Part shown: in pieces, positions 7,673 to 28,608 of the stretch
Layout of the letters: each line of letters opens with the position of its first letter
How positions within the stretch are numbered: the stretch's first letter is position 1
NCBI RefSeq assembly: GCF_030544485.1
Contig: NZ_CP130610.1
Coordinates: forward strand, 1,798,001 to 1,862,000
Reading direction: 5' to 3'
Length of the DNA stretch: 64,000 bases
Origin: Halomonas sp. HAL1
GTDB taxonomy: Bacteria > Pseudomonadota > Gammaproteobacteria > Pseudomonadales > Halomonadaceae
Position numbers and translations under genes: made by a program
Notes under the pieces: generated by a model
Database searches by the model: none
What the model saw: the letters and a program-made list of their open reading frames with translations, nothing else
Told to the model about the DNA's origin: nothing

Positions 7673-7849
7673 ATGAAAATGTTAAATGCGGTATTAATGA
7701 TTACATTAGTGCTTATCTCAGGTGTAGCACTCGCTGAGAAGGGGGCGGCTGAGGATAGCAGGGTTGTTTATTCCGAATCGAAGTCTCCGCAACAAGGCAG
7801 CGGCACACGAAGTTTATCACCCTCCGAGTTGCGTGTCAGAAACCCTTAA
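7673..7849 (+). CDS. Small exported peptide (58 aa), unknown function
   Basis: An ATG preceded by AAAGGAGT at ideal spacing opens a 58-codon gene. Residues 1-21 (MKMLNAVLMITLVLISGVAL + A) form a clean signal peptide with an ALA cleavage site, leaving a mature peptide of about 37 residues rich in Ser, Gly, Arg and Glu (ending SPSELRVRNP). No cysteine, no further membrane helix. It stands alone upstream of the ABC export genes, with a hairpin 33 bases after the stop. I do not recognise the family. The strong ribosome site and signal peptide argue for a real gene. Confidence 0.65.
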   Translation: MKMLNAVLMITLVLISGVALAEKGAAEDSRVVYSESKSPQQGSGTRSLSPSELRVRNP

Positions 7850-7882
7850 GCGAAGCAGCCTGATCTGATATGATCAGTATTG

Positions 7883-7915
7883 CCGGGCAGGCATAACATC
7901 CTTCGGGCTGCCCGG
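7883..7915 (+). terminator. Hairpin after the small exported peptide gene
   Basis: Perfect 8-bp stem CCGGGCAG / CTGCCCGG with a 17-base loop, 33 bases after the stop at 7849. No T run follows, so it is only a candidate terminator or RNA-stabilising element. Confidence 0.4.
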
Positions 7916-8190
7916 TAACTTGCTAGGTTTCAATAAAATCAGCCGCTAATTAGGCAAGAACTCATCCATGTGGTGACCCTTTAATAACAAGCTGTATGTA
8001 ATAAAATATTTGGCGGCAAGCCAGTTATTGATCTTCCCTCTTAAGCTTTTGCTTCATCGAAAGCAAATGGCCTATTCTTCGCGCAAGTATTTTGCATGTC
8101 TAACCTCCTAGTCAGAAGTGACAGGCTATTGAGCTTAGCGCTACTCATTCAGGAATTGACATCAGGAATGCAAGATATCTTGAGAAATTC

Positions 8191-8204
8191 TTGATCTGCG
8201 TCAC
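8191..8204 (+). promoter_or_regulatory. FNR/ANR-like site upstream of the HlyD-type gene
   Basis: TTGATCTGCGTCAC matches TTGAT-N4-ATCAA at 8 of 10 positions. A possible -10, CATACT, begins at 8226, about the distance expected for an activator site near -41. Degenerate, so weak on its own; its value is in the recurrence of such sites across the island. Confidence 0.4.
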
Positions 8205-8284
8205 CACGTTTACATTTTCTAGTTTCATACTGGTTGTAAAGACCAATGCTGGCACTAGCCGTTATACGCTCTTTTCCTTCTGAA

Positions 8285-8298
8285 TGACTAGTTAGTCA
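8285..8298. promoter_or_regulatory. Palindromic operator candidate
   Basis: TGACTA-GT-TAGTCA is a perfect 6-bp dyad ending 14 bases before the GTG start of the membrane-fusion gene. TetR-family repressors of export operons often bind dyads of this kind, but no TetR gene is visible in the window. A repressor bound here would block transcription or early elongation. Confidence 0.45.
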
Positions 8299-8311
8299 AG
8301 GATGCCGAATC

Positions 8312-9387
8312 GTGCCCTCCACGCTGAGAAAAGTGGTATGGCGAATGTTAATAATTGCCGGTGTTGTATTTATTGCCGGTGTGTTGGTGTGGCTGGAGCT
8401 TCGACCTGAGGGGCTGGGTGATGGTTTTGCCAGCGGTAATGGGCGAATTGAAGCGACAGAGATCGATATTGCTACCAAGCAGGCGGGTCGTATCGAAGCT
8501 GTGCTTGTTGGCGAAGGGGAGCAGGTCGAGCCGAATCAGCTCTTGGCGCGTATGGACACGAAGGTGCTAGAAGCCGAACTGGGGCAGGCCAGGGCACAGG
8601 TTCGACAAGCCGAGAGTGCGAGACGGACCGCCCAGGCACAAGTAGCTCAACGACAGAGCGAAAAAACGGCTGCTGAGGCCGTCGTGCTGCAACGAGACGC
8701 CGAGCTGTTGCAGCGCACAAGCGTTATGATCGCACCCGGGCATTGGTGGCTCGCAATGCCTTGTCGAGGCAGCAACTCGACGATGACTTGGCCAGCCTGG
8801 AGAGTACCGAAGCCGCGCTGGCCGCTGCACGTGCGGGTGTGCTCTCCGCCTTGGCAGCCATCGAGGCAGCCGATTCAAAGGTTATTGAATCACAGGCGGC
8901 CATTGAGGCAGCCAGCGCAACAGTGGACAAGCTGGAGGCAGATCTTGAAGACAGTCAACTGCGCAGTGACCGGGTGGCAAGGGTTCAATATCGTGTCGCC
9001 CAGCCCGGTGAAGTGCTGCCAGCCGGGGGTGTGGTACTCAACCTCGTCGATCTGACCGATGTCTACATGACCTTTTTCCTGCCTGAGCGTCAAGCCGGGC
9101 GTGTTGCGTTGGGTGCCGACGTGCACCTGGTGCTGGACGCAGCACCTCAGTATGTAATCCAGGCTAACGTCAGCTACGTCTCCAGCGTGGCCCAATTCAC
9201 TCCCAAGTCCGTGGAGACAGCTAGCGAACGTGAAAAGCTGATGTTTCGGGTCAAGGCCCGTATCGACCCCGCGCTACTTGAACAGCACCTAGACAAAGTC
9301 AAAACCGGTTTGCCGGGCATGGCCTATCTCAAGCTTGATGATACGCTCGATTGGCCCGACGAACTGAAGGTCAACGTGACGCCATGA
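8312..9387 (+). pseudogene. HlyD-type membrane fusion protein (YhiI-like), split by a frameshift
   Basis: The periplasmic adaptor of a tripartite export system. Frame one gives residues 1 to about 137: one membrane anchor (10-28), a lipoyl-type half motif (GRIEATEIDIATKQAGRIE) and a coiled coil rich in Ala, Gln and Glu. Near 8716-8722 the family pattern leaves this frame and resumes in the -1 frame (KRYDRTRALVARNALSRQQL) to a normal C-terminus at 9387, through the second coiled-coil arm and a barrel domain. One missing base explains it; total length would be about 358 residues, close to E. coli YhiI (355). The stop overlaps the next ATG (ATGA at 9384). Could be a true mutation or a sequencing error. 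Confidence 0.8.
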
Positions 9388-12107
9388 CCATTGATGGATC
9401 TGTAGTGCGGCTGGAAGGTGTCAGCTTGCGCTATGGTTCAGTGCATGCGTTATCCGGTCTAAATTTGGCCATTCCCGCTGGCTGTATGGTGGGGTTGATC
9501 GGGCCCGATGGCGTCGGTAAGTCCAGTCTGATGGCCCTGATTGCCGGTGCCAGAAAAATTCAGCAGGGTAGGGTTGTCGTATTAGACGGCGACATGGCAG
9601 AAGGGCGGCATCGCAAAGAGGTGTGTCGGAGGATTGCCTATATGCCTCAGGGGTTGGGAAAGAACCTCTATCCCACCCTGACAGTCTTTGAAAATCTCGA
9701 TTTCTTCGGCCGTCTATTCGGTCTGGATCGTCAGAGCCGGCATAGTCGTATTGCCGAACTTTTGCATAGTACTGGGCTGGCTAGGTTCACGGAACGCCCT
9801 GTCGGCAAGCTCTCCGGCGGTATGAAGCAAAAGCTGGGGTTATGCTGTGCGCTGATCCACGATCCCGACCTGTTGATACTCGATGAACCCACCACGGGCG
9901 TCGATCCTTTATCACGGGCTCAGTTTTGGGACCTGATTGGGCGGATACGGAGCAAGCGTCCAGGTATGAGCGTGTTAGTCGCCACTGCCTATATGGAGGA
10001 GGCTCGAAACTTCGACTGGTTGGTGGTGATGGATGACGGGCAGGTATTGAATACTGGCGCGCCTAACGATCTGCTGGCAGCGACGGGAAGTGCAACGCTC
10101 GAGGAAGCTTTTATCAGGTTGTTGCCTGAGACTAAACGGCGCAGGTATCGAGAGTTCAAAATATCGCCCCGCCAACCTGATGCCAATATAGCCATCGAGG
10201 CCCATGGACTGACCAAGCGGTTCGGCGATTTTGTCGCCGTGGATCGCGCCGACTTTCGTATCGAGCGCGGTGAAATATTTGGTTTCCTGGGATCCAATGG
10301 TTGTGGGAAGACCACCACGATGAAGATGCTCACCGGGCTACTATCCGCCAGCGAAGGAAAGGCATTGCTGTTCGATAAGCCCGTCGATCCGCGCGATATT
10401 GCTACGCGCAGTCGGGTGGGCTACATGTCCCAGGGTTTTTCTCTCTATACAGAACTGACGCTACGTCAGAACCTTGAGTTGCATGCGCACCTGTTTCATC
10501 TGCCTAAGGCTGAGCGTGCCACACGCGTGAGGGAGATGCTGGATCGCTTTGATCTCACGGCAGTGGCTGACAAATTACCGCCAGCGCTTCCACTGGGAGT
10601 GCGTCAACGGCTGTCGTTGGCGGTGGCAGTTATTCACCGACCTGAGTTATTGATTCTTGATGAACCCACCTCCGGGGTGGATCCGATAGCACGCGATAAC
10701 TTCTGGCTGCTGTTAGGGCAGATCTCCCGTGGAGAGGGAGTGACGATCTTTATCTCCACCCACTTCATGAACGAGGCAATGCGCTGCGACCGGATCGCTT
10801 TGATGCATGCCGGGCGCGTATTGGCTACCGACACCCCTGAGAAGCTACTAGCGTCGCGTGGCTTACCCACACTAGAAGCTACCTTTATGGCGTATCTGAA
10901 AGAGGCTAGTAAGATAGATGAAGCCGAGTCCGAAAAGCCGACGACTACCTCTCTCAAACCGCACCCGCCGACCCGGTCAGGCGGGCTGACCGTTAGCTTG
11001 CGCCGTTTGTTCAGCTATACCCACCGAGAGACCCTGGAGCTACGTCGCGACCCGATACGCGCCACGCTGGCGCTGCTGGGTAGTCTGATCCTAATGTTTA
11101 TCATGGGATATGGCATCAATATGGATGTCGAACATTTGACCTATGCCGTGCTCGACCGTGACCAGACCACGACCAGCCAAGCGTATACTCTCAATCTAAC
11201 GGGATCGCGTTATTTCACCGAAAAGCCTCCTCTGACCGACTACAGCGATGTACAGCAGCGTCTACGCAGCGGCGACATCAGCCTGGCGGTGGAAATTCCG
11301 CCAGGGTTTGGCCGTGATATCAAGCGTGGCAATGTGCCCAAAGTTGCTTACTGGGTCGATGGTTCCATGCCGGTCAGGGCCGATACTATCAAGGGGTATG
11401 TCGAGGGGATTCATGCGGACACCTTGGCTCGCTTGAGCGAAGGGGCTGGAGCTTTTTCTCCTCCCGTCGAGATTGCCATTCGCTACCGCTACAATCCCGA
11501 CGTTAGAAGTCTGCCAGCCATGGCCCCGGCGATGATCCCACTGCTGCTCATGTTGATACCTGCGATGCTGACTGCCTTGGGAGTCGTACGTGAGAAGGAG
11601 CTCGGCTCTATTATCAATCTCTACGTTACGCCGGTTTCTCGGTTGGAATTTCTGCTCGGCAAACAGTTGCCCTACATCATGCTGGCGATGATCAATTTCG
11701 TCACCCTGGTGGCGTTCGCCGTGTTGGCCTTTGGTGTGCCGGTGAAGGGTAGCCTGCTGACATTGAGCCTAGGCGCGCTGCTCTATGTCATCTGTTCCAC
11801 GGGGATGGGATTGTTGATGTCATCGGTTCTGCATAGTCAGATTGCCGCTATCTTCGGTACCGCCATCGCTACACTGGTGCCTGCGATCCAGTTTTCGGGG
11901 CTACTCTCTCCAGTTTCCGCGCTGCAAGGGGGTGCGGCTGTCATTGGACATATCTATCCCACCAGCCATTTTTTGATTATCAGCCGAGGCGTGTTTTCCA
12001 AAGCGCTCAGTCTGGGAGATCTGACACCGTATTTTCTGGCCCTGCTGATCACCATCCCCGTACTGACGTTATTGAGTGTTTTGGGTCTCAGGAAACAGGA
12101 GCGCTGA
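9384..12107 (+). CDS. RbbA/YhiH-like double-ATPase ABC transporter fused to an ABC-2 permease
   Basis: A 907-residue protein with two ATP-binding cassettes and a membrane domain, close to E. coli RbbA (911). Cassette 1 (about 5-235) has Walker [10 protein letters not shown], signature LSGGMKQ and Walker [14 protein letters not shown]. Cassette 2 (about 275-495) has Walker [10 protein letters not shown] and Walker [14 protein letters not shown], but its signature reads LPLGVRQ instead of LSGGQ. The C-terminal part (from about 550) has one early membrane segment, a large periplasmic loop and five later segments, as in ABC-2 exporters. It overlaps the adaptor gene by ATGA and lies 1 base from the next permease gene: an adaptor-ATPase-permease export operon. 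Substrate unknown. Confidence 0.88.
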
Positions 12108-12108
12108 G

Positions 12109-13224
12109 ATGGCCAGGCTTGCCAATATTCTGCAACTGGGTATCAAAGAAATACGCAGCCTGTATCGCGACCCGGCTCTGATGTTACTGATCATTTACTC
12201 GTTCACTTTGGGGATCTACCTGAGTGCCACTGGCGAGCCGGAGGCGCCATTCCGAGCTAGCGTGGCCATTGTCGACGAGGATCAGTCTCAGGCATCCTTA
12301 CGTATTGTTAATGCCTTTCAGCTTCCCTATTTTTTGCCGCCTGAATTTATCGATATTGGCCAGATGGATCGTGGCATGGATGCGGGGCGTTATACCTTTA
12401 CACTTAATATTCCTCCTAACTTTCAGCGTGATCTGCTGGCCGCTCGACAGCCGACCATTCAGTTGAATGTCGACGCTACCCAGATCAGTCAGGCATTTAC
12501 GGGAGCTGGGCATATTCAGCGGATTATCAGTGATGAGGTGGCCGATTTCATCGGAACATACCAGCACCCATCGCCGGGCCGCATTGAGGCAGTAGTTCGT
12601 GCTGAATTCAACGCTAATCTCAACCGAAGTTGGTTCGGCGCCATTAATGAAGCTATCAATCAAATCACCATGTTGTCGATTATCCTGACAGGAGCAGCGT
12701 TGATCCGTGAACGAGAGCACGGCACCATTGAGCATTTGTTGGTCATGCCGGTCACCTCGTTCGAGATCATGTTGGCCAAGGTCTGGTCGATGGGGTTGAT
12801 CGTGCTGTTGGCTTCGGTCTTCGCACTACGCATCATCGTCGAGGGTTGGCTGCAAGTACCTCTTCGCGGCTCGCAGACGCTCTATCTTTTCGGCGCCACG
12901 CTACTGCTGTTTGCGACCACATCAATGGGGATTTTTCTGGGCACGTTGGCGCGCTCAATGCCGCAACTGGGCCTGTTAATCATTCTGGTACTGATTCCCC
13001 TGCAGATTCTGTCGGGTGGGATGACCCCGCGTGAAAGCATGCCTGAGCTTGTGCAGCGCATCATGTTTGTCGCCCCGACCACTCACTTTGTCGAACTTGC
13101 TCAGGCCATTCTCTTTCGTGGCGCCGGATTGGGAATTGTCTGGCCGCATTTGTTGGCGCTGGCCATCATTGGCAGCGCGTTTTTTTTGGGCGCCCTTTTA
13201 AGGCTCAGAAAAGCACAAGAATGA
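12109..13224 (+). CDS. ABC-2 type permease, YhhJ-like
   Basis: A 371-residue inner-membrane protein (E. coli YhhJ has 375). One membrane segment near 20-40 is followed by a periplasmic domain of about 150 residues, then five segments from about 180 on, with the ABC-2 motif EREHGTIEHLLVMPVT. Start at 12109 directly follows the stop of the ATPase gene (GAGCGCTGAG then ATG), so translation is coupled. It should pair with the membrane half of the RbbA-like protein to form the channel. It converges on ftsH with six bases between stops. Confidence 0.88.
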   Translation: MARLANILQLGIKEIRSLYRDPALMLLIIYSFTLGIYLSATGEPEAPFRASVAIVDEDQSQASLRIVNAFQLPYFLPPEFIDIGQMDRGMDAGRYTFTLNIPPNFQRDLLAARQPTIQLNVDATQISQAFTGAGHIQRIISDEVADFIGTYQHPSPGRIEAVVRAEFNANLNRSWFGAINEAINQITMLSIILTGAALIREREHGTIEHLLVMPVTSFEIMLAKVWSMGLIVLLASVFALRIIVEGWLQVPLRGSQTLYLFGATLLLFATTSMGIFLGTLARSMPQLGLLIILVLIPLQILSGGMTPRESMPELVQRIMFVAPTTHFVELAQAILFRGAGLGIVWPHLLALAIIGSAFFLGALLRLRKAQE

Positions 13225-13230: not shown

Positions 13231-15078
13231 TTATATGCGATCCGTCGCTGGCCTGTCAGCTATCTCTACTACTCCCCCGATGGGCGGAAAATCTTGGGCG
13301 GTCAGCGTCTCGCGCTCCAGCAGCATGGCGGCACCGGTCTCCAGTACCTGGCGACGGCGGGTCAGTATCTGGGTGGCGCTATCAAAAGCGTCGTCGACCA
13401 GCCTGCGTATGGCAGTATCGATTTCACGGGCTGTTTCCTCGGAGTAGGTCTTGGGCTTTGCGAGCCCAAATTTGTCGCCTAGAAAAGCTTGCCGGTCTTC
13501 CTCATAAATGACTTGACCGCCTTCCTCACTCATTCCGAACCGGGTGACCATGCTACGGGCAATATCGGTCACCTTGGCCAAGTCATCAGCCGCTCCAGTG
13601 GAAATTTCATTGAAAATCATGCGTTCGGCGGCTCGGCCGCCCATCAGCACTGCCATGCGACTCTTTAGGTCGGCAACCGTTTGCAGGAAACGCTCCTCTG
13701 TTGGGCGCTGGATTGTATAGCCCAAGGCGCCCACCCCTCGTGGAATGATAGAGATTTTGTGTACAGGGTCCATTCCAGGCAACGAAGCGGCGACGAGAGC
13801 ATGGCCCATTTCGTGATGCGCTACTACGCGTCGCTCATGTTCATTAAGCACACGGCTTTTCTTCTCCAGTCCAGCAACGATGCGTTCCACGGCGAGTGTA
13901 AAATCGCTTAATGCCACCGCATCGGCATCACGGCGCGTGGCTAGCAGAGCCGCTTCATTGACCAAGTTGGCTAGATCAGCACCGGTAAACCCTGGAGTCA
14001 AGGCGGCTATCTGCTCGGCATCGACATCAGACGCCAACTTGTTGAGGTGTTTTAGATGTACATTGAGAATGGCAATACGTCCCCGACGCTCGGGGCGATC
14101 GACCAAAACCTGACGGTCGAAGCGTCCTGCACGCAGCAGGGCGGGATCAAGGATCTCGGGTCGGTTAGTCGCGGCCAGAAGTACAATCCCGGATGATGTA
14201 TCAAAGCCATCTAGCTCAGTTAGTAGCTGGTTGAGGGTCTGTTCCTTTTCGTCATGACCGCCACCGAGCATACCAAGCCCTCGGGCGCCGCCGAGGGCAT
14301 CCAGCTCATCAATAAAAATGATACACGGCGTGGCTTTTGCAGCTTGCTCAAAGAGGTCTCTAACTCGGGCTGCCCCCACGCCGACGAACATCTCTACGAA
14401 CTCGGACCCTGAAATCGAAAAGAAGGGAACGCCAGCTTCGCCAGCCACGGCACGGGCCAGCAGCGTCTTGCCAGTGCCAGGAGGGCCAACCAGAAGGATG
14501 CCCTTCGGCACGTGAGCCCCCAGGCGACCATAACGCTGAGGGTCGCGCAAAAAGGCCACTACTTCCTTGAGTTCATCCTTGGCTTCGTCAATGCCAGCCA
14601 CGTCGGCGAAGGTCACCTTGGTTTCGGTCTCAACATAAACACGGGCTTTCGATTTGCCCAGTGTCATCATGCTGCCGAAGCCTCCCTGACTTGATACCAT
14701 ACGGCGTAGGAAAAATCCCCAGATAGCGAATACGAGCAGGAACGGCAAGAGCCAAGAAAGCAGAGAGGTCAGCCATGACTCACTAGGCGCACCATTGAAA
14801 GTGACATCGTATTGGGCTAGCTCATTGGCCAAGGTCGGGTCGATGCGATAGGTGGTGAAGCCAGTAGTACCGTCGGAGAGTGGCGTATTGTAGGTGCCTT
14901 TGATCCGCTCTGAACTAACATCAAGCGTGTTGATGATGCCTTGCTCAAGATGATGACGAAACTCGGAATAGGGAATCGGTTCGTAGGAACGCCCCTCCGC
15001 AATGAAATCCTGAACCAATAGGACAAAAATATAGCCGAAAATAAAAAAGAGGATATATGCTTGGTAACGTTTGTCCAT
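13231..15078 (-). CDS. ftsH: Accessory FtsH membrane AAA+ zinc metalloprotease
   Basis: A 615-residue FtsH: membrane segments at about 8-22 and 104-123 around a small periplasmic domain; AAA+ module with Walker A GPPGTGKT (198-205), Walker [12 protein letters not shown] (253-263) and a second region of homology near 304-320; zinc protease motif HEMGH (422-426) in place of the usual HEAGH. It degrades membrane and short-lived cytosolic proteins. The setting, with no ftsJ/rlmE, folP or glmM nearby and with hsp20, phaC and stress genes around, marks it as an extra copy rather than the housekeeping ftsH. Such extra FtsH copies occur on stress-tolerance islands. The gene downstream on the other strand converges on it. 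Confidence 0.92.
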
Positions 15079-15132: not shown

Positions 15133-15459
15133 TTACAGATCAGCGCAGTTTTTGCAGCGGGTTGTGTAGGGCAAGGCCCTGAGACGATCTGGTGCGATGG
15201 GCTTGCCACATTTCTCGCAGAAGTCTCCGACCTGGGCAGCGATGCGTGCCAAGGCGCGTTCGGCCTGGGCCAGTTCTAGCCTGGCTTCTTCCTCCAGCCG
15301 CGCGACAACTTCGTCGTTTTGAACCTCTAGCGCCTGATCATCAAGATCTTTATTCAGAGCGCCACTGCTTCGATGCTGGTGTTCTTCATAGTGATGGATG
15401 CGGGCTTTGAGCTCTAACCGTAGGTTGTCTAGCCAGGCCTTTCTATCTTGAGTAGACAT
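15133..15459 (-). CDS. DksA/TraR-type C4 zinc-finger protein
   Basis: A 108-residue protein with a helical N-terminal hairpin and a C-terminal zinc finger CEKCG...RCKNCADL (four cysteines, C-x2-C...C-x2-C), the C4 arrangement of DksA/TraR proteins. DksA-like factors enter the RNA polymerase secondary channel and alter transcription under stress. It lacks the long N-terminus of housekeeping DksA (151 residues in E. coli) and is closer in size to the short family members. It lies just upstream of ftsH on the same strand, 54 bases apart, probably in one unit. Confidence 0.82.
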   Translation of the reverse strand: MSTQDRKAWLDNLRLELKARIHHYEEHQHRSSGALNKDLDDQALEVQNDEVVARLEEEARLELAQAERALARIAAQVGDFCEKCGKPIAPDRLRALPYTTRCKNCADL

Positions 15460-17510: not shown

Positions 17511-17793
17511 TTAAAGCGCCGCTTTGTACACAACATATGTCAGCGGAGGAGCATATTTCTACTGACGCAGAGTGAGCTACGTTGAGAGGTTTTTTTTGCG
17601 CTAGATCAATACTGTTATGGGTAAGTGCTTTTATTTGCTTGGAGAGCTTCTCTTCAAGAGAGCTTACACTATAACTATTCATACTCTACTAATAGTCGCT
17701 GTGGTCGAGGCATGGGTTTGTGCAAAAAATAGCGCACAAAAGCTAGGTAAGGGACGTTAGTTAAATTGTAGTTTACGTGCTTAGGGAAGTCGC

Positions 17794-18816: not shown

Positions 18817-18950
18817 GTTGGGTACTTTGTTTTCCCACACCACGATCACTTTGCTTGCTGCCATGACCGTGATGAAGTCGATACCGTGACGGTGGTGATC
18901 TGTGACAGTGATTGCTTATTCCTCTTGGATACGTCTGCCAGGGAGTCAGG

Positions 18951-21683
18951 ATGGAAACGCCTACTGCCGATACCAGTTTGTTATTAGATAACTCGTCTTT
19001 GGGGGTTCATGCTAGGCATATTGATGAGGTCCTTGCGGACTTGAAGACTTCATCGTCGGGTCTGACAGCAGGCGAAGCGACCAGGCGCTTGGCTAAGTAC
19101 GGACGCAACCAGTTACCGGTAGTGGCTGGCCGCCACCCACTGTTTCGTTTTCTTGCGCATTTTCATAATGCATTAATCTATTTTCTGTTAGCGGCAGCGC
19201 TCGCTGCATCACTGCTAGGGCATTTTGTCGATGCATCGGTCATTGCTGCGGTGGTCTTAGTCAACGCCGTGGTCGGTTTTATTCAGGAAGGTAAGGCGGA
19301 AAAGGCGCTGAGCGCGATCCACAATCTTATCGCCCCGCACGCTTATCTGGTAAGAGAAGGAAGGCGAGTCAAGGTGCCTGTCGAAGAGATTGTACCTGGG
19401 GATATCGTGTCGCTTGAGCCAGGGGAACGGGTTCCTGCTGACCTGCGGCTTATTCGTACGAGTGCTTTACGTATCGAAGAAGCCATTCTGACTGGTGAGT
19501 CGGTAGCAGCAGAAAAGCAGGTAATACCAGCATCAAAGGAAGCTGCGCTGGGTGACCGGCACTCAATGGCCTATTCGGGTACGCTGGTGGCTGCTGGGCA
19601 AGGGCTAGGTGTCGTGGTCGCAACGGGGGGTGCTACGGAAATCGGGCGCATCAGTGCTTTGTTGCGAGAGGTGCAGCCATTGACCACACCGCTGCTGCGC
19701 CAGATTAATCATTTTGGAAAGCAGTTTACTTGGATCACCCTGGCGGTGGCGGCCGTACTCTTTGCCTTTGCGGTATTAGTACGTGGCTATGCATGGCCGG
19801 ACGCACTGATAGCTGTCGTTGCTCTGGCGGTGGGGGCTATTCCTGAAGGCTTACCAGCAGTCATCACCATTACATTGGCTATTGGTGTACAGCGCATGGC
19901 GCGTCGTCATGCAGCGATCCGGCAGCTACCGGCGGTAGAAACACTCGGCGCTACGTCGGTCATCTGTTCCGATAAGACCGGCACCTTGACGCGTAACGAA
20001 ATGACAGTGCGACGGCTGGAAGTCCCTCATGGGCAGTACACGGTGACAGGTTCGGGCTATGTGCCGGAAGGTCGGCTGGAAGCCGCTTCTACCGATGATG
20101 CTGCTGCGGATAAACAGCGGCTAGAGAGTAGTTGTTTAGTGCTATCGGGAGCGCTGTGCAACGATGCCCAATTGAACCAGGAAAATGGTGCTTGGCATGT
20201 GATGGGCGATCCGATGGAAGGGGCGCTGGTGGCGTTGGCGATGAAAGCTGGTTTGGAGCCGGAGCTAACCCGCCATGAATGGCCGCGACTTGATGAGATC
20301 CCCTTTGATGCCAAGCATCGTTTTATGGCCACGCTTCATCGCCATTCAGCAGGCGATGGTCGGATTTTTGTCAAGGGCGCCCCCGATGAACTGCTGACGA
20401 GATGTATCGCCCAAATAGATGGTGAAGGGACGGCGCCGTTAGACCGAGATACCTGGGGCGCCAAGGTCGCGAATGCAGCCGCCCAGGGAGAAAGAGTGCT
20501 CGGCTTTGCGGTTAAAACAGTAGCCTCCGATATTGATAAGCTGGCTTTTTCCGACCTGGATGGGCTTGTCTTCATTGGCCTGATAGGGTTTATCGACCCC
20601 CCGCGCCAAGAGGCAGTGGCCGCCATTAAAGAGTGCCACTCTGCAGGTATTGCGGTGAAAATGATTACCGGTGATCACGCTGAGACGGCTGCGGCGATTG
20701 CTCGGCAGCTAGGATTTGGAGAGGAACCATACGTCCTGACGGGGCGTGATCTTGATGACATTTCAGACACTGACCTGCCTGCTATCGTGACCGAAACCAG
20801 TGTGTTTGCTCGAACCAACCCTGAACACAAACTGCGTATCGTGCGTGCCTTGCAGTCGACGGGGGCGATCGTGGCCATGACCGGCGATGGCGTCAATGAT
20901 GCACCGTCGTTGAAGCAGGCAAATGTCGGTGTTGGCATGGGGCATAAAGGGACTGATGCAGCGAAGGAGGCCTCCCAGATGGTCTTGCTGGATGATAACT
21001 TCGCCTCCATCGTCGCTGCAGTGAATGAAGGGCGAGTAGTCTATGACAATATCCGCAAAGTAACCGCGTGGACACTGCCTACTAATGGCGGCGAGGTATT
21101 GGCGGTGATTGCCGCTATCTTGTTTAACTTCTCAATGCCGATGTCTGCGGTGCAGATTTTGTGGATCAATCTTGTTACGGCGGGCACCCTTGGCCTTGCT
21201 CTAGCGTTCGAACCGGCAGAGCCCAACGTCATGCAGCGCCGCCCTAGGCCTGCCAACCAAGGGCTGCTGACACCTTTTTTGATCTGGCGGGTAGCGCTTG
21301 TGTCGTTCCTGTTTCTGGCAGCGGTGTTGGGCGTATTTTTTTACTCACTAGGGCGAGGGGATGAGCTTGCGATGGCTCGCACCTTAGTGGTCAATTTGAT
21401 CGTCGTATTGGAAATTTTCTATCTATTTAACGTGCGCTATCTACACTACACTTCATTTAGCTGGCAGGGGCTAATAGGCACCCCCGCTGTGCTGTCTGCT
21501 GTCACTGTGGTGATCGTTGCTCAGGCATTGTTTACCTACTGGCCTGTTATGCATGCCCTTTTCGATACGCGTCCGTTAGCATTTTTGGATGGCGTATTAG
21601 TCATCAGCATCGGCATGGTGATGATGGCTATATTGGAAGTCGAGAAAATTGTGATGCGCCGAACAGGCTGGCTAAATCAATAA
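18951..21683 (+). CDS. P-type cation-transporting ATPase (P2 type)
   Basis: A 910-residue pump with all P-type signatures: TGES in the actuator domain (near 180), PEGLP in the fourth membrane segment, phosphorylation motif DKTGTLTRNE near 340, MTGDHAETA and TGDGVND in the hinge, and about ten membrane segments. PEGLPA in M4 is the pattern of calcium-type (P2A) pumps, but proton or sodium/potassium relatives share it, so the ion is open. Start ATG at 18951 follows GGAGTCAGG; the reading from 18912 adds a tail without a ribosome site. It is followed after 16 bases by the YjdF-like gene and forms a unit with it. Confidence 0.9.
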   Translation: METPTADTSLLLDNSSLGVHARHIDEVLADLKTSSSGLTAGEATRRLAKYGRNQLPVVAGRHPLFRFLAHFHNALIYFLLAAALAASLLGHFVDASVIAAVVLVNAVVGFIQEGKAEKALSAIHNLIAPHAYLVREGRRVKVPVEEIVPGDIVSLEPGERVPADLRLIRTSALRIEEAILTGESVAAEKQVIPASKEAALGDRHSMAYSGTLVAAGQGLGVVVATGGATEIGRISALLREVQPLTTPLLRQINHFGKQFTWITLAVAAVLFAFAVLVRGYAWPDALIAVVALAVGAIPEGLPAVITITLAIGVQRMARRHAAIRQLPAVETLGATSVICSDKTGTLTRNEMTVRRLEVPHGQYTVTGSGYVPEGRLEAASTDDAAADKQRLESSCLVLSGALCNDAQLNQENGAWHVMGDPMEGALVALAMKAGLEPELTRHEWPRLDEIPFDAKHRFMATLHRHSAGDGRIFVKGAPDELLTRCIAQIDGEGTAPLDRDTWGAKVANAAAQGERVLGFAVKTVASDIDKLAFSDLDGLVFIGLIGFIDPPRQEAVAAIKECHSAGIAVKMITGDHAETAAAIARQLGFGEEPYVLTGRDLDDISDTDLPAIVTETSVFARTNPEHKLRIVRALQSTGAIVAMTGDGVNDAPSLKQANVGVGMGHKGTDAAKEASQMVLLDDNFASIVAAVNEGRVVYDNIRKVTAWTLPTNGGEVLAVIAAILFNFSMPMSAVQILWINLVTAGTLGLALAFEPAEPNVMQRRPRPANQGLLTPFLIWRVALVSFLFLAAVLGVFFYSLGRGDELAMARTLVVNLIVVLEIFYLFNVRYLHYTSFSWQGLIGTPAVLSAVTVVIVAQALFTYWPVMHALFDTRPLAFLDGVLVISIGMVMMAILEVEKIVMRRTGWLNQ

Positions 21684-21699: not shown

Positions 21700-22377
21700 G
21701 TGTCTAGGATTAAGCAAGTACGTGCTCGGCTGCTAACGCTTGATCCGTTTCCTGTATGGCTGTTTGTTGGCTTTGTGCTGTTCTGGATATGGCTGGCCAT
21801 AGCACCTTATTACCGCTCAGATTGGCTGCTTGAAAATATTCTGGTGTTTGCCGCGGTGCCCGTATTGGGTTGGTTGTGGTATCAGGGTGGTGTCTCGCGT
21901 CTGGCATGGTTAAGCATTTTTCTATTTTTAATATTTCATGAAGTTGGTGCTCATTATACCTATTCTGAAGTGCCCTATGACCACTGGTTGAGAACACTGC
22001 TTGGGTTTTCTCTGGACCAACGGTTTAGCTTTGAGCGTAATCAGTACGACCGCTGGGTACATTTCCTTTATGGACTGCTACTTTTTCCACTGATGAAAGA
22101 TCTTGTGAAAAGACGCCTACTATATGAGGCAGTTTTATGGCGCCTACTACCGGTGGTGCTGATTTTATCCCATTCGGCGTTTTATGAGATTGCTGAGTGG
22201 CTGGCTGTTGTACTCTTCCCAGGGGAATTGGGGGAGTCATACCTAGGTGCCCAGGGAGATATTTGGGATGCGCAGAAGGATATGGCGTTAGCACTTTTAG
22301 GAGCTTTCATAGCCAGTGCGCTGAGTGTGCCAGTGCGCTATTTAGTAGCTAGAATTAGCTCGGCCGCCAATAAATAG
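21700..22377 (+). CDS. DUF2238 (YjdF-like) membrane protein
   Basis: A 225-residue inner-membrane protein with six or so hydrophobic segments, starting with GTG after GAGGTAGAGGAGT. It has the family markers EVGAHYTYSEVPYDHW and QYDRWVHFLYGLL and, later, HSAFYEIAEW and GAQGDIWDAQKDM: conserved His, Asp and Glu residues within membrane helices. Function unknown. The 16-base gap to the P-type ATPase suggests a joint transcript and perhaps a joint role at the membrane. Confidence 0.85.
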   Translation: MSRIKQVRARLLTLDPFPVWLFVGFVLFWIWLAIAPYYRSDWLLENILVFAAVPVLGWLWYQGGVSRLAWLSIFLFLIFHEVGAHYTYSEVPYDHWLRTLLGFSLDQRFSFERNQYDRWVHFLYGLLLFPLMKDLVKRRLLYEAVLWRLLPVVLILSHSAFYEIAEWLAVVLFPGELGESYLGAQGDIWDAQKDMALALLGAFIASALSVPVRYLVARISSAANK

Positions 22378-22822: not shown

Positions 22823-24550
22823 CTATGCTTTTCTGACATAGCTGCCGGGGGCGTTTTCGAGAGGTGGGTAGTTTTGTGAACCAACGTGAGGTGCCTCGAC
22901 AAGGGGGCCTGATCTTGCTGCCAACCATGATTGCCATGCACCCCACCAGGAGCCTGGCTTAATTGCTGTACGCTCCAGCCACGTGTCTGGATCAATATAG
23001 GAGTCACCTTCAAAGGCGGTGGCTATTCGATAATGCCGATGCGATTGTTCAGGGGGACTAATAATACCCGCGTTATGACCACCGCTAGTGAGCAAAAAAG
23101 TAATCTCCGGTGCATCTGCAAGAAGGTGCAATCTATAAGTGGATCGCCATGGTGCGACATGGTCCCACTCTGTGCCAACACAGAAAATAGGTATTTGTAT
23201 ATCGCTAAGCGCCACCGGGCGGCCTTCTACCCGCAAGCGTCCTTCGGCTAAGTCATTATTTAAAAATAGGGTACGCAAATATTCAGAATGCATACGGTAG
23301 GGCATGCGCGTTGCATCGGTGTTCCAGGCGAGAAGGTCGTTAATGGGTTGCCTTGCGCCTAACAAATACTCGTTCACGGCCCGGGACCAGATTAAATCGT
23401 TGGAGCGCAGTATCTGGAATACCCCTGACATTTGTTTCGTATCGAGAATGCCCTGAGCCCACATTAAGTCTTCAAGGAAAGCGAGCTGCTTTTCATCAAT
23501 AAAAAGCATTAGTTCACCAGCTTCTCGGAAGTCCGTTTGTGCGGCGAAGAGTGTCATTGAGGCCAAGCGGTTGGCTCCATTTCTGGCCATCGCAGAAGCG
23601 GTAATAGCCAACAGGGTGCCGCCCAGGCAGTAGCCTACCGCATGTATTTTCTGACTAGGAAATAAGTTTTCGATGACATAGAGACTCGCCAGAATGCCTT
23701 GTTGCCGATAGTCATCCATTCCAATATCGCGATCTTCGGCCGTTGGGTTGCGCCAGGAAATTATAAAAACCGTATGGCCATGATCGACTAAGTACTTAAC
23801 AAGCGAGTTATGGGGGGACAAATCCAGGATGTAATACTTCATGATCCATGCAGGCACAATGAGTATAGGCATCACATGTACTTCTTCTGTAGTAGGGGTG
23901 TACTGGATTAGCTCGATCAGATGATTGCGAAAGATAACCTTGCCCGGTGTAATTGCTACATTTTCTCCAACGACATACATTTCAGAACCCGCTGACCTTT
24001 TGCCGAGATAGTGGTTTTGGATATCTTCACAGTAGTGCTGCAGCCCTTGTATTAAGTTGGCTCCAGCGCTCTCAACAGTTTTTTGGAGCACCGCGGGATT
24101 AGTCAGTAAAAAATTGGAGGGCGAGAACACATCAAGCCACTGGCGGGCACCGAATTCTACTGCCTGCTCGTGATGCAGGGATAAGCCGCGTAGTCCGGTG
24201 GTGGCGTTATGCCACCACTGCTGTTGAAGAAGGAAGCCCTGATAAAGCAGATTATAGGGGAAGTAACGCCAGGCAGGGTCACGAAAACGACGATCCTGGG
24301 GCAGGGGATCAATACAAGCTGTGGCATTGGGGTCGAAGGCCGAATGGCTGGCCCAAGACAGCAAGCGTAGCTGTTTCTTCATTGCTTTTTGTACTAGATG
24401 AGCTTGAGTTCCAGGAGAAGTCTGGAGGCTTGATAGCCAGTCCAAGTAAGTCAGCATGGCCGATGTAGGAGAAATGCCGAGTGTTAGCCCTGCCAGTGAT
24501 GCTCGTACCAGCCTGTCCAAATGTTGGTATTGTGTCTCATCATAAAGCAT
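22823..24550 (-). CDS. phaC: Class I-type polyhydroxyalkanoate synthase
   Basis: A 575-residue PHA synthase that polymerises hydroxyacyl-CoA into storage polyester. The N-terminal domain covers about 1-200 (RRFRDPAWRYFPYNLLYQGF near 87-106). The alpha/beta hydrolase part has the lipase-like box GYCLGG with the nucleophile Cys308, Asp463 (TEWDHVAPW) and His492 (SGGHNAG), the full triad. No phaA or phaB lies beside it; a phasin-like gene is 6 kb away. It is divergent from hsp20 and shares the 433-base region between them. In this setting it may be a second, stress-linked PHA synthase rather than the main one. Confidence 0.9.
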   Translation of the reverse strand: MLYDETQYQHLDRLVRASLAGLTLGISPTSAMLTYLDWLSSLQTSPGTQAHLVQKAMKKQLRLLSWASHSAFDPNATACIDPLPQDRRFRDPAWRYFPYNLLYQGFLLQQQWWHNATTGLRGLSLHHEQAVEFGARQWLDVFSPSNFLLTNPAVLQKTVESAGANLIQGLQHYCEDIQNHYLGKRSAGSEMYVVGENVAITPGKVIFRNHLIELIQYTPTTEEVHVMPILIVPAWIMKYYILDLSPHNSLVKYLVDHGHTVFIISWRNPTAEDRDIGMDDYRQQGILASLYVIENLFPSQKIHAVGYCLGGTLLAITASAMARNGANRLASMTLFAAQTDFREAGELMLFIDEKQLAFLEDLMWAQGILDTKQMSGVFQILRSNDLIWSRAVNEYLLGARQPINDLLAWNTDATRMPYRMHSEYLRTLFLNNDLAEGRLRVEGRPVALSDIQIPIFCVGTEWDHVAPWRSTYRLHLLADAPEITFLLTSGGHNAGIISPPEQSHRHYRIATAFEGDSYIDPDTWLERTAIKPGSWWGAWQSWLAARSGPLVEAPHVGSQNYPPLENAPGSYVRKA

Positions 24551-24983
24551 TGTTATTAACCCTAGAAACTGAGCGTTAGTTTATCTAACAATAACACTTA
24601 CTTACCTTTACTGGTTCACTTTACTCGAGTGCCAAGTGACGCTGATGCCACTGTACTTTAAGCTGTCCGTATATATAACAAAAGCAATAACGAAAAATTA
24701 TTGTGATATGAGTTCTATTGATAGGTTTAATATGAGTTCAAATTGGCTGCTACACAATAATTTTACTACCATTTTATAGGTGAGTTGGGGTGAAGCTGGT
24801 TTTAATTGCTCTGGATCAAGTTTTTTGCGTATTAGTGCTTTTTGATTACATGTGTCACCTTCTAAATAAAAATGTTTGCGCTATAAATATACCATGGCTT
24901 GTAATGTAGCCATTGAGAAAAAGAAGGATAAAAATGCAATTTAGCCCTTTTCTTAAGTAAAAGAAATACATAGGAGTAGTGTC
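24551..24983. other. Divergent promoter region between phaC and hsp20
   Basis: 433 AT-rich bases with no gene. It holds the ANR-like site at 24806-24819. I looked for a sigma-32 promoter before hsp20 and did not find one. Confidence 0.5.
24806..24819 (+). promoter_or_regulatory. ANR/FNR-like box upstream of hsp20
   Basis: TTGCTCTGGATCAA matches TTGAT-N4-ATCAA at 9 of 10 positions. A loose -10 (TGATTA at 24843) lies 37 bases on, the same distance as for the two ferritin-like genes. The site could also act on phaC in the other direction. Confidence 0.5.
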
Positions 24984-25487
24984 ATGGAAAAAGCAATCAG
25001 CAAGCCTGTAATGGCGGAAAAAGATACGGACTCACTTTCCAGTAAGCGCTCTTTAAGCCCGCTGGAAGAGTTTGATCGTATGATAGAGGGTTTCTTCGAG
25101 CGCAGCTGGATGAAGCCCTTTTTCAAGGAAGACTTAATAAAAGAACGGCTAGGTTTTTTCGGTCAACATAACCCTAAAGTTGACATCATTGATCGAGACA
25201 TAGAAATCGAAGTGCGCGCTGAGATGCCAGGGGTTGACCGGAAAGAAATAGACCTGGAAATAACCGAACACGCCGTGATGTTGAAAGGCCAGCGTTCTGG
25301 AGAAACCCAGGAAAAACAGGATGAGTATTACCATTCAGAAATTTGGCAAGGTGCCTTTTCTCGGACGATTGCCTTGCCAGTAGAAGTGGATACTAAACAT
25401 GCTGAAGCTAAATTTAAAGACGGCATATTGACAATCACCATGCCAAAAGCCAAACAGGCTTTACGGCGCAAGCTTGAAATCAAGTAG
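24984..25487 (+). CDS. Hsp20 / alpha-crystallin small heat shock protein
   Basis: A 167-residue small heat shock protein that holds unfolding proteins in a refoldable state. N-terminal arm with FFERSWMKPFFKED (about 37-50); alpha-crystallin domain from about 65 to 155 with VDIIDRDIEIEVRAEMPGV at its start and the closing FKDGILTITMPKA. No C-terminal I-x-I is evident beyond LEIK. Start follows AGGAGTAGTGTC. It is followed 61 bases on by the BON gene. Expression may depend on ANR rather than sigma-32. Confidence 0.93.
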   Translation: MEKAISKPVMAEKDTDSLSSKRSLSPLEEFDRMIEGFFERSWMKPFFKEDLIKERLGFFGQHNPKVDIIDRDIEIEVRAEMPGVDRKEIDLEITEHAVMLKGQRSGETQEKQDEYYHSEIWQGAFSRTIALPVEVDTKHAEAKFKDGILTITMPKAKQALRRKLEIK

Positions 25488-25548
25488 GTAGAGTGAGTAT
25501 TTCTACGTAATAAGAAGATTTGCTTGCAAAACTGAAGGAGTACTAAGG

Positions 25549-26199
25549 ATGCCAAAGTCAGATAGTCAAATTCAGAAAGATGTGCTTGCCGAACTCGAGT
25601 ATGAACCCACTGTTCGTGCTTCGAATATTGGGGTAGAGGTTAACGACGGCATTGTGACATTAGCAGGCCATGTAGATAGTTATGCAGAGAAGTGGCATGC
25701 AGAAATGGCAGCGCAGCGAGTTAGCGGTGTTAAAGGCGTTGCCGTTGAAATGGATGTAAAATTGCCTGGGAATAACAAGCGCACTGATGCGGATATTGCT
25801 CGTGCGGTTAAAAATACGCTGGAGTGGAATATATACATTCCAAATGACCCATTAAAGGTAATGGTTGAAGACGGTTGGGTGACGCTAACCGGCGAAGTCC
25901 CCTGGGAGTATCAACGGCGTTTGGCTGCTAGTTCCATACGCTACTTGACAGGGGTTACGGGTGTGAGTAACCAAATCGTTCTCAAACCTAAGCCTACCGC
26001 TGCTGCTGTCAAGGCCGATATTGAGGCCTCACTTAAACGTAGAGCTATCCAGGATGCCAATGCGATCAAAGTCGAGGTGCACGATCACGACGTAATACTA
26101 AGTGGCAAGGCACACAGCATCGCGGAAAAAGACTTAATACACCATTCTGCATGGAGTTCGCCCGGCGTATGGAAGGTAATAGATGATATAAGGGTTTGA
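25549..26199 (+). CDS. BON-domain protein with three BON repeats
   Basis: A 216-residue protein with three BON domains at about 5-73, 79-147 and 150-216; each has the pattern helix, then G-x-V-x-L-x-G (DGIVTLAGHV, DGWVTLTGEV, HDVILSGKA). Unlike OsmY it starts MPKSDSQIQKDVLAEL with no signal peptide, so it appears cytosolic. BON domains bind membranes or lipids and are linked to osmotic and envelope stress. It follows hsp20 closely and is probably co-transcribed. Good AAGGAG site upstream. Confidence 0.88.
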   Translation: MPKSDSQIQKDVLAELEYEPTVRASNIGVEVNDGIVTLAGHVDSYAEKWHAEMAAQRVSGVKGVAVEMDVKLPGNNKRTDADIARAVKNTLEWNIYIPNDPLKVMVEDGWVTLTGEVPWEYQRRLAASSIRYLTGVTGVSNQIVLKPKPTAAAVKADIEASLKRRAIQDANAIKVEVHDHDVILSGKAHSIAEKDLIHHSAWSSPGVWKVIDDIRV

Positions 26200-26293
26200 A
26201 GGCGATAAGTAATAAAATTTCAAAACGTAGAATGGTCATCGAATCGCTAGAAGGGTTCGATGACTCTATCTTTTGTCTGCCGTTTTTTGTTGA

Positions 26294-26707: not shown

Positions 26708-26714
26708 CTTGGCC

Positions 26715-26732
26715 GCAGAAACTGAGTGCAAC
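26715..26732 (+). repeat. IS30 left terminal inverted repeat
   Basis: GCAGAAACTGAGTGCAAC; 15 of 18 bases match the reversed right end. Confidence 0.75.
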
Positions 26733-26762
26733 ACCTAAGAATTTTAGTAAGGTGTTGGATTT

Positions 26763-27779
26763 ATGTCCTATTCAGAACTCAGCATCGAAGAACGTGCCAC
26801 CATACAGGTAAGCCTCAGGCAAGGCATGAGTCTCCGCCAGATTGCTCACATGTTGAGGCGTTCTCCGTCTACCCTCAGCCGTGAAGTACGGCGCAACCAA
26901 ACTCAGTCAGGTGCCTACTGTGCTCATAGTGCGCAGACGCACCGCTGCGCTCGACGCATGGTTTGTCGCCCAAAACGTAAGCTGCTGTTGGGGAGTGAAC
27001 GCTTTGAGCTGGTCATTCATATGCTTCGCAACCGCTTGTCTCCAGAACAAATAGCAGGCAAGCTCAAACGCATGATGACGCCCAGTTTTGAAGATGCTTA
27101 CGTCTGCCGTGAGACGGTCTACAACGCCATTTACGCCTTGCCTGTGGGCCAGCTTAAGAAAGAGTTGATTCACTGCCTGCGCCAAGGCAAATCGACCCGT
27201 AAGCCTCGCCGTGGTCAGGTCGATCGCCGTGGCCAAATACCCGACATGGTGAGCATTCACCTTCGTCCACCGGAGATAGAGAAGCGCGAAATGCCAGGCC
27301 ACTGGGAGGGCGATTTAATCAAAGGTAAGAACAATGCCTCTGCCGTCGGCACGTTAGTTGAACTCAGCAGTGGCTACGTCATCCTCGCCAAATTACATGA
27401 CGCCACAGCGACCTCAGCTGTTGAGGGATTTAGCGCAGCACTCAACCGAATGCCACTAGCCGCACGCAAGAGCATGACGTATGACCAAGGCCGAGAAATG
27501 GCTAAGCATGCACAGATTACCCAAGCAACGGGTGTTGCAATCTACTTTTGTGACCCTCACAGCCCATGGCAACGCGGTAGCAATGAAAACATCAATGGCT
27601 TGATACGGCAGTATTTACCGAAAGGGACGGATCTGTCGCACCACACCCAAGAGGAACTTGATGCCATTGCATTACAGCTGAATATGCGGCCTCGAAAGCG
27701 CTTTGACTTCAGGTGCCCAGTTGAAGTGCTGGGCGAAATATTGGCGAAACACCAAGAAAGCCCACCAGCCATTCATTAA
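26763..27779 (+). CDS. IS30-family transposase
   Basis: A 338-residue DDE transposase. N-terminal helix-turn-helix (YSELSIEERATIQVSLRQGM, then LRQIAHMLRRSPSTLSREV) is the IS30 signature. The catalytic domain shows GHWEGDLIKG (first Asp), YDQGREM (second Asp) and the third acidic residue in SPWQRGSNENINGLIRQYLP, followed by KGTDLS. All three acidic residues are present and the frame is intact, so the element could be active. Confidence 0.95.
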   Translation: MSYSELSIEERATIQVSLRQGMSLRQIAHMLRRSPSTLSREVRRNQTQSGAYCAHSAQTHRCARRMVCRPKRKLLLGSERFELVIHMLRNRLSPEQIAGKLKRMMTPSFEDAYVCRETVYNAIYALPVGQLKKELIHCLRQGKSTRKPRRGQVDRRGQIPDMVSIHLRPPEIEKREMPGHWEGDLIKGKNNASAVGTLVELSSGYVILAKLHDATATSAVEGFSAALNRMPLAARKSMTYDQGREMAKHAQITQATGVAIYFCDPHSPWQRGSNENINGLIRQYLPKGTDLSHHTQEELDAIALQLNMRPRKRFDFRCPVEVLGEILAKHQESPPAIH

Positions 27780-27784
27780 GTAGC

Positions 27785-27802
27785 GTTGCACTCAGAGACT
27801 GC
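27785..27802 (-). repeat. IS30 right terminal inverted repeat
   Basis: Reversed it reads GCAGTCTCTGAGTGCAAC, pairing with the left end at 26715-26732. Confidence 0.75.
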
Positions 27803-28107
27803 ATCCACCCATTATTAATTAATGAAAAATATTTACGGCTAATGCTTTTTTATTAATTAAGTTAAGCGTAATGATGGTTTTCTTACTATTTTTATTTATA
27901 AAAATACCTTATATAAATTATGGTTTGTAAATTTTTTTATTTATTTAATGTTCATGGTGATTTTGATTTATTTAATTTACGTTAACTTTTTATTACTGGC
28001 TGAAAAGCTAACATATATCATAGTAACTGAGCTTTGTTCCGCTCTAAGATAATTTTTTGAAATCCTCCCGGCCTTGAGATGTTTTATACCCTTAGAGGGC
28101 TTTGCCA
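27803..28107. other. Very AT-rich region between IS30 and the ferritin-like paralog
   Basis: 305 bases, no gene. Contains runs of T and A and the promoter at 28008-28050. Confidence 0.6.
28008..28050 (+). promoter_or_regulatory. Promoter matching that of the 17.0-kb paralog
   Basis: CTAACATATATCAT starts 37 bases before a TAAGAT -10, the same distance as at 16910-16952. The two share ATCATAG and, further on, GAGCTTT. The first half of the ANR dyad is more degenerate here. Confidence 0.45.
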
Positions 28108-28608
28108 ATGGTTAGCTTAGCAGTACTTAGTCCCCTGCCTCAGGATCAAATAACCTTAGCTTACTCGCAAGAGACACGTGAGTTGTATCGCTATCGTGGG
28201 TTGGCACTTTGCTTTCTGCCCTTTGATCCCCCCGTTAGCCGTTTGATGAGCGCCATTGGTATGGAGTGCGAACATAGGATTTTTAACTTGCAGGAAGTGG
28301 CAAAGCAGATGGAGTTAGTTCTTCCTTCAACTATTAGCCAGCTAAGAGAAATGTCCTTTTTAAATAAAAATAGCAGGCATTTTTTCGTGTTGGATGAAAC
28401 TATGGGTAGGCAGGTTCTTCTTGACGCTGAAGAGGCGGCTGAAACGTCGCATACATTCTTTAGCAGGCTATCGGAAACCAACGCGATTCCTGAGTTACAG
28501 CAACTGTTATCTACCTTTGTAGCTCAGAAATATAGTGAGTATCACGTCGTAAAAGAGTGTCGTGAGCAATGGAAGAACGCTCTCTATGCGCTGGGTTGTG
28601 CTTCATAA
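28108..28608 (+). CDS. Ferritin-like helical protein, paralog B
   Basis: A 166-residue helical protein, clearly related to the gene at 17007: RYRGLALCFLPFDPPVSRLM and AIGMECEHR (with E-x-x-H) recur, followed by LQEVAKQMEL, FVLDETMGRQVL and a C-terminal EYHVVKECREQW. I chose the ATG at 28108 after AGAGGG, as in the paralog; a TTG two codons earlier is possible. Conserved residues suggest a metal-binding four-helix bundle. It overlaps nothing and is followed at 28673 by a diguanylate cyclase. Function unknown. Confidence 0.6.
   Translation: MVSLAVLSPLPQDQITLAYSQETRELYRYRGLALCFLPFDPPVSRLMSAIGMECEHRIFNLQEVAKQMELVLPSTISQLREMSFLNKNSRHFFVLDETMGRQVLLDAEEAAETSHTFFSRLSETNAIPELQQLLSTFVAQKYSEYHVVKECREQWKNALYALGCAS

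Follow-up and report, generated by a model that had tools for sequence, protein, structure and literature searches.

In a 64-kb stretch of the 4.44-Mb genome of Halomonas sp. HAL1 (GCF_030544485.1, contig NZ_CP130610.1, positions 1,798,001 to 1,862,000), called the window below, an accessory polyhydroxyalkanoate (PHA) synthase, PhaC, lies in an island of genes for proteostasis, export, ion transport and ferritin-like proteins. All coordinates are positions in this window. The island is real, recurring, accessory and often rearranged, and its gene set is more than a chance association. We consider it fairly probable that the island is the Halomonadaceae version of the proteobacterial FNR/FixK-type hypoxic regulon, tied to a distinct accessory PhaC clade. 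This reading is built on the identities of the genes, their co-occurrence, an enrichment of ANR/FNR-type boxes, a conserved promoter layout and one gene for an FNR-type regulator. Judged from the promoters, the island genes are probably switched on jointly at low oxygen, and we class the island as the Halomonadaceae form of a low-oxygen stress regulon already known elsewhere.

Co-occurrence around the accessory synthase

The genome has two PhaC copies, and the island copy is the accessory one. In a tree of 171 PhaCs the 136 that by BLAST are nearer to the window copy separate cleanly from the 35 nearer to the canonical copy. Some PhaC match is present in 77 of the 82 Vreelandella/Halomonas genomes of the genus set, and the lineage of the window in 14. 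The gene is intact in nine of these 14 (77-100% identity) and broken in five, G020, G077, G059, G002 and G009, where the assignment of the G002 and G009 pieces (61-76% identical) to the lineage is a judgement. The broken copies (loci L129, L130 and L135-L142) are a sign of repeated gene loss.

The window proteins were mapped onto loci reaching up to 20 kb to each side of phaC, less at contig ends. This gave 15 accessory-phaC loci, the window included, and eight comparison loci of the same genus with PhaCs only 49-57% identical. The DksA-like protein and a 119-amino-acid (119-aa) protein were each found in ten of the 15 loci; Hsp20, the triple-BON-domain protein (BON3), a 152-aa protein and a 167-aa protein in nine each; the P2-type ATPase (at least 74% identity) in eight, DUF2238 in seven, the GGDEF protein in six, the zinc alcohol dehydrogenase (ADH) in five, and the accessory protease FtsH2 and the exporter component RbbA in four each. 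None of the eight comparison loci, four of which were covered by one stretch of at most 20 kb, had Hsp20, BON3, the DksA-like, 152-aa, 119-aa or 167-aa proteins, DUF2238 or ADH. The 167-aa family is present in 13 of the 14 genomes with the window's PhaC lineage and in 17 of the 68 without it (p 3e-6).

The order of the genes varies between relatives; one locus of G046 reads BON3, 152-aa, Hsp20, ADH, ATPase, DUF2238, DksA-like, PhaC. Judged by translations alone, relatives carry extra genes for an apparent 888-aa acetyl-CoA synthetase/acetyltransferase-like protein and for CbpA/CbpM-like proteins. Tandem pairs of a 167-aa-family gene and a GGDEF gene occur here and in G024, G069, G077, G059 and G009. 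The BON gene and the 168-aa gene are separated by 1.9 kb here (26200-28101) and by 0.8 kb in G024; the G024 gap has no IS30 match, and the IS30 insertion therefore looks recent.

Boxes, promoter layout and the regulator

The exact box TTGAT-N4-ATCAA was searched for in 80 loci from Pseudomonadota, the best 80 among the PhaC matches listed in a scan of named genomes. It was found at 29 sites in 19 of the loci, while 19 other palindromes of the same letters gave 0-2 sites each and other spacings, from 0 to 11 bp, gave 0-4. Most of the exact boxes (23 of 29) lie outside the frames that were called mechanically, and six are placed 190-360 bp in front of PhaC. A second comparison used an even sample of 40 accessory loci out of 45 listed places (G000, the genome studied here, G024 and three others being left out) and 20 canonical loci, 15 of them from the same genomes as accessory loci. 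With at most one mismatch, 77 boxes were found in 28 of the 40 accessory loci (747 kb) against 14 in nine of the 20 canonical loci (372 kb); exact boxes numbered seven against none.

Within Vreelandella the box precedes hsp20 in eight of nine loci and adh in four of five, as would be expected of an FNR regulon. Altogether it stands before 28 of 113 island genes and four of 81 control genes, and all four control boxes lie ahead of Fer4 and rhodanese genes, either those at the left end of the window or their homologues, which are themselves anaerobic-looking.

Promoter alignments display the box, a nearly fixed gap and then CTATAA. This layout, with a gap of 59-62 bp, precedes hsp20, adh, a BON gene and the 888-aa synthetase-like gene in Vreelandella. 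In 23 regions, 15 of the 20 CTATAA motifs within 150 nt after TTGNNNTNNNTCAA sit 59-62 bp behind it. A strict pattern, which was drawn from the adh and hsp20 promoters of the island, matches twice in the whole genome, at these two promoters. A looser pattern gave 25 places in 18 of the 82 genus genomes, compared with 12 for the reversed control. Island-type genes follow 19 of the 25: hsp20 in ten genomes, adh in five, the 888-aa gene in two, BON3 in one and a distant homologue of the 167-aa protein in one (G019), a match that is unlike the others and may be due to chance. The remaining six, in G008, G026, G029, G042, G050 and G066, were judged to be chance matches; four of them lie inside long open frames. 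The layout goes with the window's PhaC lineage (11 of 14 genomes vs seven of 68, p 6e-7; ten of 14 vs two of 68 when the six chance-like matches are dropped), and it should be noted that many of the matches are orthologous promoters and thus not independent. The centre of the box would lie near -80 from the predicted start, which would be a position of the class I activator type.

A different explanation is that the island is a hot spot of unrelated stress genes, with hsp20-BON3 and adh-ATPase-DUF2238 as the only oxygen-controlled units and no programme. The IS30 element in the middle of the island, the broken genes, the order and content that vary between relatives, the presence of FtsH2 and RbbA in just four of 15 loci and the absence of the box from most genes would all fit a hot spot. 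However, the same specific families recur with the window's PhaC lineage and not with the other PhaC lineages of the genus, and the hsp20 layout is kept in G001, where hsp20 lies elsewhere, and in G044, which is without the accessory PhaC. We regard the hot spot as unlikely.

The island could also be as we describe it and its boxes serve another member of the CRP/FNR family, a DNR- or FixK-like protein responding to nitric oxide or redox state, in place of FNR/ANR. Many relatives share one and the same deviation of the conserved box, TTGCTCTAGATCAA, from the FNR consensus, FNR, FixK and DNR boxes are described as very similar in passages of PMC2908626, and translations suggest a CRP-like regulator inside the cluster of three relatives (G069, G077 and G006). 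The genome has ten CRP-type regulators over cut-off, but one of them has the CX2CX5C iron-sulphur motif of FNR, the other nine having been checked for that motif only. The probability of such a DNR- or FixK-like regulator appears low to us. Five of the ten regulators lie within 17 kb (contig 1 of the genome, 1715898-1732452), about 66-82 kb to the left of the window.

The pairing of Hsp20 with FtsH, and the J-domain/CbpM-like genes seen by translation beside the cluster in several relatives, would also suit a locus of the heat-resistance type (Hsp20 plus proteases) for which low oxygen is irrelevant. The island's Pfam matches include none of ClpK/ClpG, YfdX and HdeD, which are other markers of heat-resistance loci. 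Moreover, hsp20 has the conserved ANR-type box and its leader folds no better than shuffled sequences (z 0.29). We find a heat-resistance locus very improbable. On the same grounds an RNA thermometer was rejected for both the hsp20 and the adh leader (z 0.52 for adh), and in the whole window a tRNA was the only Rfam hit at gathering scores.

If the island is a hypoxic regulon of the FNR/FixK type, the following scheme, in which binding, activation, the operons and every physiological step are proposed, can be drawn up. Falling oxygen would activate the ANR/FNR-type regulator, which would bind boxes with their centre some 80 bp ahead of the predicted start and turn on transcription of hsp20-BON3 and adh-ATPase-DUF2238. 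The divergent phaC would perhaps be co-activated by way of the shared intergenic box, which lies 269 bp before it. PhaC and ADH could then bank carbon and reductant as polyester, Hsp20 and FtsH2 could hold or clear damaged protein, the P2 ATPase could keep the ion balance, the DksA-like protein could adjust transcription, and the ferritin-like proteins could handle iron or oxygen; these protective roles are suggested by the protein families.

Low-oxygen regulons of other bacteria

The closest precedent is in Bradyrhizobium. Its phaC2 is a FixK2 target (as stated in parts of PMC10888616) and the product is listed as a microoxia-induced protein in excerpts of PMC6515984. A comparative study predicts a FixK regulon with Hsp20, HlyD, ABC subunits, zinc ADH, a kinase and CBS proteins, and its available sections give blr6070, blr6071, blr4637, blr0497 and blr6074 as FixK2-dependent (PMC2908626). 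Portions of the two papers together indicate that the phaC2-ADH-kinase-CBS cluster and an Hsp20 need FixK2 (PMC2908626, PMC10888616). The cluster bll6068-blr6074 shares with the island an accessory PhaC clustered with a zinc ADH and FNR-type boxes, and the predicted FixK/FixK2 regulon further shares Hsp20, HlyD and ABC genes. The combination of a PhaC of the accessory clade and a zinc ADH was found in five of the 40 even-sample loci. In locus L217 the order and strands of Usp, ADH, PhaC and CBS equal those of bll6069-blr6074, with the kinase not matched, and an acetyltransferase-like gene also fits the published order of locus tags. The island differs from the FixK2 cluster in belonging to another bacterial class and in having no Usp or CBS among its profile matches, and it adds the DksA-like, DUF2238 and ferritin-like genes and the box near -80 with CTATAA.

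Another neighbourhood, phaC1-fabI-bi-pta, is described in sections of PMC8686332 for Halomonas sp. SF2003 and Cobetia marina. According to extracts of PMC7175313, a mutant host can form PHA with the PhaC1 of SF2003, whose box is GYCLG. Both it and the island PhaC have a GYCLG-type box, and FabI and MaoC-Pta, which are not seen in the island, also recur beside the accessory PhaC clade in other genomes.

The DosR regulon includes the small heat-shock protein HspX, the cation P-type ATPase CtpF and the storage-lipid synthase Tgs1. These have roles analogous to those of island genes, a likeness of function with no homology claimed. The DosR dormancy set of mycobacteria, as presented in parts of PMC8044303, has another regulator and another storage polymer and belongs to another phylum. 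A bolder claim, which we put forward tentatively and think somewhat doubtful, is that the island is a discrete, transferable module for hypoxic persistence in Halomonadaceae, a functional counterpart of DosR. Here one promoter type, the ANR-type box near -80 with CTATAA, which in the genus would be almost only this module's, would unite a storage synthase, Hsp20, a P2 ATPase, a dehydrogenase and the ferritin-like family in a single survival programme even where the genes lie apart.

Across Pseudomonadota, families recurring in the 80 loci included MaoC-Pta (16), AckA (13), FabI (9) and Usp (8). An RbbA of at least 51% identity, with adaptor and permease, stands beside PhaC in 15 of the 80. Among the smaller proteins the DksA-like one was met once and the 152-aa protein twice; the 119-aa and 167-aa proteins had no match. 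As a control, 37 window proteins from outside the island were compared with the same loci: 30 had no match, an ABC ATPase had 39 (a shared ABC domain), a short-chain dehydrogenase 16 and the other five 1-4. In an even draw, 43 of 397 genomes had the accessory PhaC (E 1e-170 or better) and 83 of 199 had the canonical PhaC (E 1e-100 or better), some of the latter matches being accessory copies. In the even sample, with single-family p values uncorrected for the many families, accessory loci differ from canonical ones in AckA (12/40 vs 0/20, p 0.005), MaoC-Pta (10/40 vs 0/20, p 0.023) and Usp (8/40 vs 0/20, p 0.043); acetyl-CoA synthetase-like proteins (7/40 vs 0/20, p 0.08) and ADH (54-62% identity; 5/40 vs 0/20, p 0.16) follow. 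FtsH2 was found in 1/40 vs 1/20 and the P2 ATPase in 0/40 vs 0/20; the control proteins gave 10/40 vs 1/20 (ABC ATPase) and 5/40 vs 6/20 (short-chain dehydrogenase). The RbbA exporter was rejected as a general partner of the accessory PhaC, since it occurs in one of the 40 even-sample loci and in none of the 20 canonical ones; set against the 15 of 80, this means that it goes with part of the PhaC clade only. In L205 and L207 (G155 and G267) an accessory and a canonical-type PhaC lie about 6 kb apart.

Several results weigh against a Halomonadaceae hypoxic regulon of this composition. Outside the genus Hsp20 stands beside the accessory PhaC in only 5/80 loci, FtsH2 in 2/80, BON3 in 1/80 and DUF2238 in 0/80, and the even sample gave 1/40 vs 0/20 for Hsp20 and 0/40 vs 0/20 for both BON3 and DUF2238. 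The promoter layout is not enriched there either (eight matches in 175 genomes, nine for the reversed control). In 15 same-genome pairs the excess of boxes, 29 vs 7, is uneven (nine higher, three lower, three equal; Wilcoxon p 0.049). Boxes are nearly missing before the P2 ATPase (0/9), FtsH2 (0/4), RbbA (0/3), GGDEF (0/3) and DksA-like (1/10) genes; with the majority of island genes lacking an individual box, shared control of the island's left half is unproved. Among the 15 loci compared, FtsH2 and RbbA are limited to those of this genome and of its three closest relatives, G024, G014 and G075, and the exporter adaptor is in two frames in this assembly, compared with one frame of 366 codons in G014. 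Finally, passages of PMC10888616 judge the Bradyrhizobium PhaC2 alone not to be an active synthase. Since SF2003 PhaC1 supports PHA formation but PhaC2 was judged inactive, the window PhaC may have a modulating role and not be a main synthase.

A preliminary description of the window had proposed a coordinated low-oxygen programme, not named as a system, on the basis of ANR-like sites. The sites were borne out by the enrichment of boxes around the accessory PhaC clade and the conserved layout at two island promoters. The programme stands in part, with two promoters of shared layout and most genes boxless. The expected co-occurrence held in the genus, in rearranged order, for most genes; it failed for FtsH2 and RbbA and was partial outside the genus. 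As to novelty, we met no description of this halomonad island in titles or the beginnings of abstracts of the open-licence literature, and the rhizobial FixK/FNR regulons are a precedent.

Halomonads are used for bioplastic production. If the accessory PhaC belongs to an oxygen-controlled stress programme, this would predict when the extra PHA synthase acts, and a compact candidate oxygen-responsive promoter would be on offer. A further suggestion would be that in Pseudomonadota the genes for storage, chaperones and ion pumps make up a single unit for survival of hypoxia.

Features of the island and its neighbours

The island genes are collected in Table 1. Identities come from searches with Pfam and curated-family profiles, using the cut-offs of the families.

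Table 1. Genes and promoters of the island, with the profile or other observation behind each entry.
Feature	Position	Strand	Basis or remark
HlyD-type adaptor of RbbA exporter	8312..9387	+	HlyD profiles on both overlapping frames, 8312-9055 and 8743-9387
RbbA-type ABC ATPase/permease	9351..12107	+	NF033858
YhhJ-like ABC-2 permease	12076..13224	+	ABC2_membrane_3
Accessory FtsH protease, second copy (FtsH2)	13231..15078	-	TIGR01241
DksA-like zinc-finger protein	15133..15459	-	zf-dskA_traR over cut-off
152-aa predicted four-helix bundle, possibly ferritin-like	15639..16097	-	structure prediction
119-aa protein, family unassigned	16157..16516	-	directly before phaC in 4 relative loci
167-aa predicted ferritin-like bundle of halomonads	17007..17510	+	structure prediction
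adh promoter	17596..17674	+	ANR/FNR-type box 17596-17609, CTATAA 17669-17674
Zinc alcohol dehydrogenase (ADH)	17794..18816	+	TIGR02822 over cut-off
P2-type cation-transporting ATPase	18912..21683	+	Cation_ATPase_N, E1-E2_ATPase, Cation_ATPase_C
DUF2238 (YjdF-like) membrane protein	21700..22377	+	profile match
Accessory PHA synthase (PhaC)	22823..24550	-	PhaC_N, PHBC_N; lipase-type box GYCLGG
hsp20 promoter	24806..24886	+	ANR/FNR-type box 24806-24819, CTATAA 24881-24886; box common to divergent phaC
Hsp20 small heat-shock protein	24984..25487	+	profile match
Triple-BON-domain protein (BON3)	25549..26199	+	profile match
IS30-type transposase	26763..27779	+	profile match; insertion not in G024
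168-aa paralogue of 167-aa ferritin-like protein	28102..28608	+	57% identity
GGDEF protein	28562..29674	+	profile match; adjoins 167-aa homologue in several relatives

Most of the gene list in the preliminary description was recovered by profile: FtsH, Hsp20, PhaC, ADH, the P-type ATPase, DUF2238, which we take to be the YjdF family, BON, the RbbA-YhhJ-like exporter (apart from its split adaptor) and IS30. RbbA scores 1519 bits with the equivalog profile (cut-off 1050) and is accompanied by the permease, as in a YhiI-RbbA-YhhJ exporter. FtsH, present in two copies in the genome, scores 772 bits (cut-off 600) and ADH 348 bits (cut-off 283.5). PhaC has the domain (PhaC_N, 207.7 bits) and the cysteine lipase-type box of class I, while its score with the class I profile TIGR01838, 556.4 bits, is below the cut-off of 622.65. 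The factor described as DksA-like appears from its profile scores to be just that: a DksA equivalog gives 38.6 bits against a cut-off of 105. The phasin-like identity found no support, since at E up to 10 no phasin profile matched any of six members of the 119-aa family, a search with profiles that did not include a direct comparison with the canonical PhaP.

Of the proteins thought to be ferritin-like, the 167-aa protein is modelled as a ferritin-like four-helix bundle and has the 168-aa paralogue; the 152-aa protein is less certain. In the alignment of the 167-aa family E23, E54, E109 and E145 are invariant or nearly so and H57 is frequent; a second ExxH was not seen in it. Sequence comparison of the 167-aa and 152-aa proteins with solved structures gave no match with E below 0.3, and among 45 members of the 167-aa family no Pfam entry matches more than four, with Rubrerythrin weakly in two. 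Named relatives of the 167-aa protein are from Vreelandella, Halomonas and Halovibrio.

To the left of the island, NrfD-type, 4Fe-4S and rhodanese genes (353-4104) likely encode an anaerobic respiratory complex; position 4091 has an exact FNR-type box and position 2426 one with a single mismatch, and boxed homologues of these genes are found in G069 and G081. To the right, a regulator of the iron-dependent-repressor type adjoins a ZnuA-type binding protein and an ABC ATPase (30639-33021), probably a manganese or zinc uptake unit. A Cpn60 chaperonin gene (41428-43071) lies 12 kb to the right of the island, and a 57% homologue stands beside the accessory PhaC in L219.

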